DNA of 64,000 nucleotides from Dokdonella sp. (lineage in GTDB: Bacteria; Pseudomonadota; Gammaproteobacteria; Xanthomonadales; Rhodanobacteraceae). The notes beneath the pieces are model-generated. The model saw only the letters and a program-made list of their open reading frames with translations. It was not told the DNA's origin and did not search any database. Positions 18,872-37,012 of this stretch are shown here, in pieces. The position numbers and the translations under genes are program-made. Location: assembly GCA_023228465.1 (NCBI GenBank), contig JALOBC010000009.1:1-64000 (forward strand), in the 5' to 3' direction. The number at the start of each line of letters is the position of its first letter. Positions within the stretch are counted from its first letter, which is position 1.

Positions 18872-20209
18872 TCATCCGAGTAACCATGCGACGAGATCAG
18901 TGACAATGCGCTCGGCTGCGTGCCCATCCCACGTTTCCGGGCGGCGGCCGCTTTTGCCGTTTCCGCTCAGCGCCTGCGTGACACCGGCACGAATTGCTTG
19001 CGGGTCGGTGCCGACCAGGGTGTTGGTGCCCTGGGTGAGGGTGATCGGGCGTTCGGTGTTCTCGCGCAGGGTAACGCAGGGTACGCCGAGCGCGGTGGTT
19101 TCTTCCTGCATGCCGCCGGAGTCGGTGAGGACGACTGTCGCGTCGCTCATCATGCCGAGCATCTCGAAATAGCCGATGGGCGGCAGGGCGAGGATTTGCG
19201 GATTGTCGAAGAAGTTGCCGAGTCCTGCCGATTGGATTTTTTGCCGGGTGCGCGGGTGTATGGGGAAAACGATGGGGAGGTCGCGGCTGATTCCGGTCAA
19301 CGTATCGAGGAGGCGTTTGAGCGTGGCGGGGTCGTCGACGTTGGAGGGGCGATGCAGGGTGAGGACGGCGTAGCCGGTGGGGGACTGGAGGAAGGTGGCC
19401 GGATCCTTGGGGGCCGTTGCTTCCGATGTGACGGAAGGCACTGGATCCAGGCGTTCGCCGGGATGACGAGGTGTGGGAGGTTCGACCGAATGAACAGCAT
19501 CGCGGCTGAAGCCGCTCCCACGGGGGTCTGCTATGGATTGCGCAAGCGCTGTGGGAGGGACTTCAGTCCCGATGCTCGGCCCTGCCGTGCGGGCGGCATC
19601 GCGGCTGAAGCCGCTCCCACAGGGTGCGGCGGCTTCGATGGTGGTGCGGGCGGGCACGGCGCGGGCGCGGCTGGCGAGGAGGGTGTCGATCATGACGTTA
19701 CCGGCGAAGACCACCTTGTCGGCGTCGATACCTTCTGCACGCAGGTTGTCGAGGGCGTCGGCTTCGGTCGTGTAAAGGCGGTCGGATAGCTGGTCGGTCA
19801 GGATGCGGTTGATTTCCTCGGGCATGCTGCGATCGCGCGAGCGCAGGCCGGCTTCCACGTGGACGATCTTCACGCCCTTCTTCGCTGCCACCAGGGCACA
19901 GGCGATGGTGGAATTGACGTCGCCCACGACCAGCACGCAATCGGGCTGCTCGGTGTCCAGCACCTCTTCGAAGCGGGTCATGATCTCGGCGGTCTGGCGC
20001 GCATGGCTGCCGGAACCCACCTCGAGCGAAATGTCCGGCGCCGGGATGCCGAGCTGCTCGAAGAACGCCTCGTTCATGGCGTAGTCGTAGTGCTGGCCGG
20101 TGTGGACCAGCTTCGCCTGGACCTGTGGAGCGTGTTCACGGAACGCGCGCAGGATCGGCGCGATCTTCATGAAGTTTGGCCGTGCGCCAACCACGCAGAC
20201 GACCTTCAT
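18872..20209 (-). CDS. wecB: UDP-N-acetylglucosamine 2-epimerase with in-frame REP insertion
   Basis: A 445-residue non-hydrolysing epimerase interconverting UDP-GlcNAc and UDP-ManNAc. Family motifs are intact: VGARPNFMKIAPI, HTGQHYDYAMN, VVGDVNST, HVEAGLRSRDRSMPEEINRILTDQLSD, TLHRPSNVDD, LTDSGGMQEE, LGVPCVTLRENTERP. The usual length is about 375-380. The excess of roughly 70 residues lies at about 196-268, between NVMIDTLL and the second Rossmann domain, and is encoded by REP-type elements (GSGFSRDA appears twice, with IGTEVPPTA between). The start ATG 20209 precedes MKVVCVVGARPNF. All catalytic blocks flank the insertion and the frame is preserved, so the enzyme is probably functional. Confidence 0.92.
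   Translation of the reverse strand: MKVVCVVGARPNFMKIAPILRAFREHAPQVQAKLVHTGQHYDYAMNEAFFEQLGIPAPDISLEVGSGSHARQTAEIMTRFEEVLDTEQPDCVLVVGDVNSTIACALVAAKKGVKIVHVEAGLRSRDRSMPEEINRILTDQLSDRLYTTEADALDNLRAEGIDADKVVFAGNVMIDTLLASRARAVPARTTIEAAAPCGSGFSRDAARTAGPSIGTEVPPTALAQSIADPRGSGFSRDAVHSVEPPTPRHPGERLDPVPSVTSEATAPKDPATFLQSPTGYAVLTLHRPSNVDDPATLKRLLDTLTGISRDLPIVFPIHPRTRQKIQSAGLGNFFDNPQILALPPIGYFEMLGMMSDATVVLTDSGGMQEETTALGVPCVTLRENTERPITLTQGTNTLVGTDPQAIRAGVTQALSGNGKSGRRPETWDGHAAERIVTDLVAWLLG
19438..19620. repeat. palindromic repeats inside wecB
   Basis: Three REP elements sit inside the coding sequence: inverted copies at 19497-19521 and 19596-19620 (core GCGGCTGAAGCCGC) and a direct copy at 19551-19575 (core GGGACTTCAGTCCC). 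Adjacent, 19441-19468, is a second palindromic family (GGCGTTCGCC centre, ending GGATGACG), also found near 36081-36108 and 36137-36162. Total added length is a multiple of three and introduces no stop in the wecB frame. Confidence 0.9.
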
Positions 20210-20447
20210 GGTGCCGCAGGTGCCCGGCATGCGCGCGAGCGTGCCTGTTCGTCGTTCTCAGGCCCGCGCCGATGCGCTCCGTGCGCCTCGTCCATGATCC
20301 GGGCCCGCCTTGTGCGGTGGCTGCCTGCCATGACTCCCCCTAAAGTCTTCCGAACGCGTGGGCATCCACGCCGGAATCCGTTGAAGTATACCTTTCGCGC
20401 CGCCTGGTGTGGATAGGTTCAGGATCCATCGTGCGTCCGTGGCCGAT

Positions 20448-24324: not shown

Positions 24325-25007
24325 GTGGGAGGGACTTCAGTCCCGATGCCGCGTGAAAGTCCGCTGCTGTGGGAGGGACTTCAGTCCCGATGCGCCTGCG
24401 CCTCGAAAGCATCGCGGCTGAAGCCGCTCCCACAAGGCAAGCGGGATCGCAACGCATGTAGGAGGGGCTTCAGTCCCGATGCCGCGTGAAAGTCCGATGC
24501 TGTGGGAGGGACTTCAGTCCCGATGCCGCGTGAAAGTCCGCTGCTGTGGGAGGGACTTCAGTCCCGATGCGCCTGCGCCTCGAAGGCATCGCGGCTGAAG
24601 CCGCTCCCACAAGGCAAGCGGGATCGCAACGCACGTGGGAGGGACTTCAGTCCCGATGCTGCGTGAAAGTCCGCTGCTGTGGGAGGGACTTCAGTCCCGA
24701 TGCTGCGTGAAAGTCCGCTGCTGTGGGAGGGACTTCAGTCACGATGCCGCGTGAAAGCCCGCTGCTGTGGGAGGGACTTCAGTCCCGATGCCGCGTGAAA
24801 GCCCGCTGCTGTGGGAGGGACTTCAGTCCCGATGCCGCGTGAAAGTCCGCTGCTGTGGGAGGGACTTCAGTCCCGATGCCGCGTGAAAGTCCGCTGCTGT
24901 GGGAGGGACTTCAGTCCCGATGCCGCGTGAAAGTCCGCTGCTGTGGGAGGGACTTCAGTCCCGACGCGCCTGCGCCTCGAAGGCATCGCGGCTGAAGCCG
25001 CTCCCAC
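24325..25007. repeat. dense REP block with exact 44-bp tandem array
   Basis: Thirteen direct-orientation REP elements begin at 24325, 24369, 24458, 24502, 24546, 24635, 24679, 24723, 24767, 24811, 24855, 24899 and 24943. The last eight (24635 onward) are spaced exactly 44 bp, a 25-bp element plus an almost invariant 19-bp linker (GCGTGAAAGTCCGCTGCT type). Three inverted partners (core GCGGCTGAAGCCGC) sit near 24410-24434, 24587-24611 and 24983-25007. The block fills the 799-base space between the convergent ketosynthase and outer-membrane protein genes and contains no credible CDS. Confidence 0.93.
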
Positions 25008-27237: not shown

Positions 27238-27756
27238 GTGGGAGGGACTTCAGCCCCGATGCGCCTGTGCCTCGAAAGCATCGCGGCTGAAGCCGCTCCC
27301 ACGAACCGCGCACTCGGCCCCGCTGCGAGATGACCTGGCTGCTGTGGGAGGGACTTCAGCCCCGATGCGCCTGTGTCTCGAAGGCATCGCGGCTGAAGCC
27401 GCTCCCACAAGGCAAGGGGGATCGCAACGCATGTGGGGGGGGCTTCAGTCCCGACGCCGCGTGAAAGTCCGATGCTGTGGGAGGGACTTCAGTCCCGATG
27501 CTGCGGGAAGTCCCCTGCCGTGGGAGGGACTTCAGTCCCGATGCGCCTGCGCCTCGAAGGCATCGCGGCTGAAGCCGCGCCCACGAACCGCGCACTCGCC
27601 CCCGCTGCGAGATGACCTGGCTGCTGTGGGAGGGACTTCAGCCCCGATGCGCCCGTGCCTCGAACGCATCGCGGCTGAAGCCGCGCCCACGAACCGCGCA
27701 CTCGCCCCCGCTGCGAGATGACCTGGCTGCTGTGGGAGGGACTTCAGCCCCGATGC
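27238..27756. repeat. REP block between TraB gene and aminotransferase
   Basis: Direct elements start at 27238, 27344, 27433, 27477, 27520, 27626 and 27732; inverted partners at 27278, 27384, 27560 and 27666. Direct copies are of two subtypes, core GGGACTTCAGCCCC or GGGACTTCAGTCCC. They alternate with partner copies in a head-to-tail BIME-like layout, and the linkers between units are themselves duplicated (the CTGCGAGATGACCTGGCTGC segment recurs near 27320, 27605 and 27712). With flanks, 27157-27887 holds no gene. Confidence 0.92.
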
Positions 27757-34576: not shown

Positions 34577-36913
<2,337 letters not shown>

Positions 36914-37012
36914 GCTCCGCGCGCGCCGCGATGCCTTCCACGCAAGCGTGCCACCGCGTCGTCCCGGCGCACGCCGGGACCCAGGGCCTGAATCGGCCCG
37001 CCCGCCCGCGAC

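Follow-up and report, generated by a model that had tools for sequence, protein, structure and literature searches.

In 2013, Di Nocera, De Gregorio and Rocco described GTAG and CGTC REPs lying inside the coding regions of several species (PMC3733652). According to the accessible text of that paper, intragenic REPs often occur as dimers or clusters, the clusters sometimes encode 43–82 residues, and flexible linkers are proposed as the sites at which they are tolerated; recB of X. campestris and of X. oryzae carries different REPs at about one site. The GTAG-1 family delineated there includes GTRG variants and GTGG. In-frame mobile repeats are reviewed in PMC2229807, the available part of which describes an RPE-bearing guanylate kinase that is translated and active with a changed affinity, and the available part of PMC12306157 has REPs overlapping coding regions only seldom. 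The wecB gene analyzed here belongs to this already reported class; because in-frame REPs were published in 2013 (PMC3733652), it is another case of a known phenomenon. The sequence-only reading that drew attention to the locus had set it apart from the palindromic elements of Rickettsia, a contrast that fails, as RPE-4 and RPE-6 are themselves CGTC REPs according to PMC3733652.

The gene lies in a 64,000-nucleotide stretch of DNA, hereafter the window, at 18872..20230 on the minus strand and, by Pfam and NCBIfam, encodes a non-hydrolysing UDP-N-acetylglucosamine 2-epimerase of 452 residues. The Pfam family Epimerase_2 matches with an E value of 2.2e-100, and the NCBIfam model TIGR00236 (wecB) scores 300.1 bits, above its cut-off of 210.15, with the match falling into two stretches. 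The closest solved structures are UDP-diNAcGlcA and UDP-GlcNAc 2-epimerases. The neighbors of wecB are polysaccharide genes, encoding a glycosyltransferase, a polysaccharide synthesis protein and a DegT aminotransferase. Dense REP arrays of the GTGG family, none with a spanning frame of 120 codons, lie 4–17 kb from wecB at 24325..25007 (16 elements), 27238..27756 (11 elements) and 36082..36983 (19 elements in all, CGTC-type elements at the ends included), and a GTGG-family cluster of three elements occupies the start of the contig at 1..107. REP arrays also adjoin exopolysaccharide genes in Thauera, as reported in PMC3733652.

A repeat-derived insert separates the two Rossmann domains of WecB at 19437..19623 (minus strand); its ends, placed by reference to homologues, are approximate. 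The insert contains four palindromic elements. The first REP copy, at 19596..19620 (minus), is an exact match to the consensus GTGGGAGCGGCTTCAGCCGCGATGC, is GTAG-1-like with a GTGG tag, and encodes GSGFSRDA. The second, at 19551..19575 (plus), is inverted, has a variant stem, reads IGTEVPPTA on the coding strand, and pairs with the copy at 19596. The third, at 19497..19521 (minus), is again exactly GTGGGAGCGGCTTCAGCCGCGATGC, lies 99 nt from the first, and likewise encodes GSGFSRDA. The fourth element is a CGTC-type palindrome at 19442..19468 (minus), recognized by the class features of PMC3733652, which encodes RHPGERLDP. Three REP copies and one palindrome of a second family had been read from the DNA initially; all four are present, with only two of the REPs exact and the third an inverted variant, and the accompanying remark that the same element encodes GSGFSRDA twice holds, GTEVPPTA being encoded once. 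In the window, GTGGGAGCGGCTTCAGCCGCGATGC has 19 matches at up to 3 mismatches; 100 shuffles yielded 0 matches, which rules out a chance origin of these copies.

The layout of the wecB REP is GTGG-GA-GCGGC-TTCA-GCCGC, with the GTGG tag preceding the stem. It thus displays the unpaired GTAG-like tag at one end of a short palindrome, the GW dinucleotide between tag and stem, the 5–13 bp stem and the 2–20 nt loop of the GTAG-1 family. The element at 19442-19468 reads CGTC-ATCCCGGC-GAAC-GCCTGGAT-CCA and forms an 8-bp stem with one mismatch, a 4-nt loop and a CCA tail; in tag, stem, loop and tail it agrees with the CGTC-1 family, one mismatch away from an ideal CGTC palindrome. Under the feature definitions of PMC3733652, we class the GTGG element as GTAG-1-like and the second palindrome as CGTC-1-like.

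The linker between D182 and T291 measures 108 residues in this WecB; in every one of 109 homologues it is 26–57 residues long (median 29). Of this set, from which none was dropped, 29 were loci listed out of matches that spanned 90 of 233 genomes, and a second genome scan supplied the other 80. The excess is about 79 residues over the homologue median and approximately 62–70 residues relative to the nearest relatives by alignment, in keeping with the extra segment of about 70 residues that had been proposed to sit between the Rossmann domains. When WecB is aligned with L038, L039 and L040, the three nearest relatives found (67–70% identity), a step suggested earlier for setting the ends of the insert, the extra segment appears as one gap starting at about residue 203. 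A search of related genomes for wecB without the insert, likewise suggested, returned exactly that: the insert is absent from all 109 homologues compared, and the segment is thereby ruled out as an ancestral part of WecB. As this comparison rests on homologues of at most 70% identity rather than on an empty allele of the same species, we infer the insertion event from it.

Despite its added length, the wecB frame (18872-20230, minus) runs through 452 codons without a stop or a frameshift, and of the positions that at least 97% of the 109 homologues conserve, 75 of 75 are intact, in agreement with the sequence-only reading on both the preserved frame and the family motifs to either side. An AlphaFold2 model of WecB built with 70 homologues has a mean pLDDT of 85.5 and a pTM of 0.83, and Foldseek matches it to solved epimerases. 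Both Rossmann domains are modeled with high confidence; residues 209–272 are the sole segment of at least 3 residues with pLDDT below 50, and the insert is therefore predicted to be a disordered loop between the domains. These data bear on whether the insert has inactivated the enzyme, in which case wecB would be an early pseudogene with its frame still open. The window is rich in REP arrays, and a repeat-bearing gene of another genome illustrates that repeats can accompany broken genes: in one of 14 relatives of an MmeI-like protein discussed below (L232, genome G032), the conserved C-terminal motif continues in another frame after the repeats, the sole frame shift among the 14. The L232 frame shift suggests that repeat inserts can break genes; L232 is possibly a gene so broken, or it possibly carries a sequencing error. 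For wecB, inactivation is nonetheless unlikely given the fully retained conserved positions in an uninterrupted frame, the confident prediction of both domains, and the outcome of a genome search for a second wecB that could relieve selection, which returned one full match and six others that are short stretches within REP arrays. An intact paralogue, which the sequence-only reading had named, together with a non-functional WecB, as grounds against itself, was thus not found in the genome. Most likely, the long WecB is translated and still an active epimerase, and the insert is neutral.

The GTGG elements in wecB are part of a family dispersed throughout the genome. A 193-base query spanning the insert gave 106 genome matches, itself counted, and a REP pattern search of the genome gave 80 (46 forward, 34 reverse) with 0 for the control. 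Across 260,163 bases, comprising the window and 36 fetched stretches chosen because they surround a match to one of the two repeats or a transposase gene, we counted 167 GTGG-type elements in 32 clusters at up to 4 mismatches. Three of the 32 clusters, those in wecB, IcmF and the MmeI-like gene, were judged to lie inside proteins, the other 29 not each being established as intergenic, and the family is in this sense mostly extragenic, as had been stated. The CGTC type stands out less distinctly as a family: its pattern has 39 genome matches at up to 3 mismatches, as compared to 5 for a reversed control; the wecB copy alone is exact and the others carry 2–3 mismatches. The Y1 transposase has 3 genome matches. 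The one that we looked at in detail, L159:2994-3695, scores 132.2 bits over residues 85–222 against the REP-associated tyrosine transposase model NF047646 (cut-off 80), and it is flanked on both sides by REPs that differ by 0–1 mismatches from the two forms present in wecB, some of which overlap the frame.

Array periods vary by site (L155, L157, L169–L172 and the window), measuring 99 nt in wecB and the MmeI-like gene and 94, 96, 100 or ~133 nt elsewhere, with the L171 array showing periods of 99 and 132 nt. The periods of intragenic arrays are multiples of three, as are those of some other arrays; the arrays are too few for a test. Contigs C27, C70, C68 and C65, as well as C59 at its start, terminate in REP arrays, indicating that the assembly breaks at these repeats. 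As draft contigs often end in these repeats, the repeat copy number within the insert could be wrong. The contig ends (C27, C70, C68, C65 and the start of the window) also give some weight to a more radical reading, that the insert is an artefact in which a repeat was misjoined inside wecB. We consider this highly improbable: the sequences flanking the insert make up a single gene whose halves follow each other correctly and share a frame, the insert sits at a natural linker, and the pattern recurs in two other proteins of the genome and in separately assembled relatives.

The first of these two proteins is the IcmF fused mutase (L165:1179-5117, 1313 residues), which carries a REP with 3 mismatches at residues 614–622, between the GTPase and mutase domains, followed immediately by a second REP as judged from the peptide. 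The stretch between aligned blocks is 70 residues long here and 27 in solved IcmF, and the linker recurs in the repeat-selected sample of the genome (8 matches, best 1.1e-6). The second is an MmeI-like restriction-modification protein (L169:2625-6701, 1359 residues), in which five GTGG elements spaced 99 nt apart, together with inverted partners, cover residues 1069–1224, after the target recognition domain; the part beyond the array has no Pfam match, yet aligns with relatives. In the same protein, residues 684–693, located between the methyltransferase domain and the recognition domain, correspond to a weak CGTC-type element (6 mismatches); the segment containing it recurs in the repeat-selected sample (7 matches, best 4.8e-10). 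We scanned 30 frames spanning other REP clusters with Pfam, and 22 had no family. The frames of an aconitase, a DUF192 protein, an S24 peptidase and signal peptidase II were not counted, as the repeat precedes the domain and, on inspection, the probable start. The frame spanning the L171 cluster has DUF6053 as its sole Pfam match. This model scores REP translation, at 32.1 bits in the MmeI-like array (L169:2625-6701) and 46.3 bits in L171:5803-6504, with a weak match in WecB (E 0.037); we accordingly rejected DUF6053 as a genuine domain. With its 34 positions, DUF6053 may model repeat DNA of the genus rather than a protein domain. A literature search found no paper naming the model, and inspection of the frames of its matches in relatives, performed without a family search, found no clear repeat-decorated conserved protein.

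We compared the linkers of these two enzymes across related genomes. IcmF was matched in 15 of 16 genomes of the genus, this genome included, and the alignment comprised this genome and 13 others (G040, without a match, and G042, with fragments, were left out). Linker 2 spans 17–20 residues in 6 of the 13 relatives (among them G031, which is poorly aligned there), 35–70 residues in the remaining 7, and 43 residues here. Linker 2 of G036 holds a CGTC-like peptide pair that recurs in the G036 sample; linker 1 of G029 holds a GTGG-like segment that recurs in the G029 sample; and linker 1 of G032 holds GTGG-like peptides, with no recurrence in the G032 sample. In 14 relatives of the MmeI-like protein (L222–L235), site S1 ranges over 9–89 residues and site S2 over 28–211 with differing repeats, the value of 28 coming from L223, a frame ended by the contig end. 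Perfect hairpins with a stem of at least 8 occur at 8/14 S1 and 2/14 S2 sites; among 182 tiles of 180 nt from the same genes, 8 contain such a hairpin (Fisher 7e-7 for S1). By inspection of peptides and hairpins, at least three kinds of repeat occupy the linkers: GTGG-like, CGTC-like and CCCTCCCC/CCCTTCTCCC-like.

Recurrence of the linkers elsewhere in their own genomes was evaluated with samples of 100 kb each taken at arbitrary places in four other genomes, the sample of the window's genome being chosen around repeats. The limit was tightened post hoc to 1e-5, since a limit of E 1e-3 let through many control tiles as well. When the window's genome was included and tiles of 150 nt were used, 9 of 21 linkers recurred as compared to 5 of 162 tiles (Fisher 8e-7). 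Upon rerunning the test on the four arbitrarily sampled genomes alone with same-length controls, 5 of 15 linkers recurred at E 1e-5 as compared to 8 of 383 tiles, with a Fisher value of 4e-5 that is rough because tiles were reused across lengths and are non-independent; the other 10 linkers showed no recurrence in the 100-kb samples, a point against reading these linkers as sites of dispersed repeats, as is the L232 frame shift.

Two lines of evidence could suggest that the repeats are kept for a function of the extra segment or of an mRNA hairpin, such as regulation or partner binding: i) the insert contains a strong RNA hairpin, and ii) the same linkers bear repeats in several species. Compared with 200 shuffled sequences, the insert RNA (coding strand) has a stronger fold than 199 (z −3.19), and such folding could lower wecB expression. 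However, repeats at a given linker differ by species, and the linker is short in several orthologues, which fits tolerance better, and we regard a retained function as quite unlikely. The C-terminal linker at S2 of one MmeI-like relative, L228:1-2811 (+) of genome G213, bears at residues 644–745 a whole DUF559 domain in frame (PF04480, E 9.3e-33), with repeat hairpins of the CCCTTCTCCC/GGGAGAAGGG type beside it. The domain may mark the mobilizer of this repeat family. A literature search for DUF559 combined with repeats returned nothing relevant, nor did one for repeats in linkers. A broader and tentative proposal, which we hold to be possible but doubtful, is that the linkers of modular enzymes in this bacterial family are shared landing sites that unrelated palindrome families with mobilizers of their own enter in frame repeatedly, driving fast linker growth; as a complete DUF559 domain adjoins the repeat in one MmeI-like linker, a DUF559 nuclease may mobilize the CCCTTCTCCC...GGGAGAAGGG type.

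Taken together, the data very probably reflect a REP cluster that was inserted into the wecB interdomain linker and kept, with the protein most likely an active epimerase bearing an unstructured segment and the insert most likely neutral. By this account, the linker would have received, either at once or over several steps, a small cluster made up of three GTGG REPs of the RAYT type and a single CGTC-type palindrome. For the GTGG REPs, the most likely origin is placement by the REP-associated tyrosine transposase of the genome or copying from other REP clusters; for CGTC repeats, PMC3733652 found no associated transposase. The insert would then have persisted because its length preserves the frame, because the frames of the REP are mostly open (5 of 6 are stop-free), and because the linker can accommodate a long unstructured loop. 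Clusters of at least 3 elements have 0–4 of 6 frames open, and those of 3–4 elements have 1–4; with one length in three keeping the frame, chance survival of a linker insertion would not be rare. Most other gene positions would presumably not tolerate such an insertion. The earlier suggestion that REP mobilization can produce new protein segments stands insofar as the insert is in frame in an intact wecB and a transposase gene is present; it is preceded by PMC3733652 as to novelty, and translation of the segment is presumed, its usefulness conjectural.

The wecB gene is a clear-cut natural example of a conserved enzyme gaining a loop from a mobile repeat, with the likely transposase present in the genome, and in two other enzymes the same linkers hold different repeats in different species. 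The idea that interdomain linkers act as tolerated sinks in which short mobile palindromes collect, and are a source of change in linker length, thereby becomes testable. The Pfam model DUF6053 carries a warning, as it scores translated REPs. Beyond the recB remark in PMC3733652, our literature search found neither use of the same linker by different repeats nor mixed GTGG and CGTC inserts, which is weak evidence of absence.

Among described systems, the locus resembles REPtrons, in which a REP-associated tyrosine transposase gene is flanked by REPs, in that L159:2994-3695 matches NF047646 and has REPs on both sides; the wecB insert, in contrast, consists of REPs only, without a transposase gene. 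With the Rickettsia palindromic elements it shares palindromic repeats lying in frame within conserved proteins, and one of the wecB elements is CGTC by its features; this resemblance is one of class (CGTC) only, and the bulk of the wecB insert is RAYT-type GTGG REP rather than RPE. It also resembles the intragenic GTAG and CGTC REPs of PMC3733652, which as described there likewise lie wholly within the frames of known proteins, often as dimers or clusters, with flexible linkers suggested as tolerated sites. Relative to what the accessible text of that paper describes, the present case differs in that GTGG-type and CGTC-type elements occur together in one insert, and in that two modular enzymes carry repeats at shared linker positions in several species, these being of at least three kinds on inspection.
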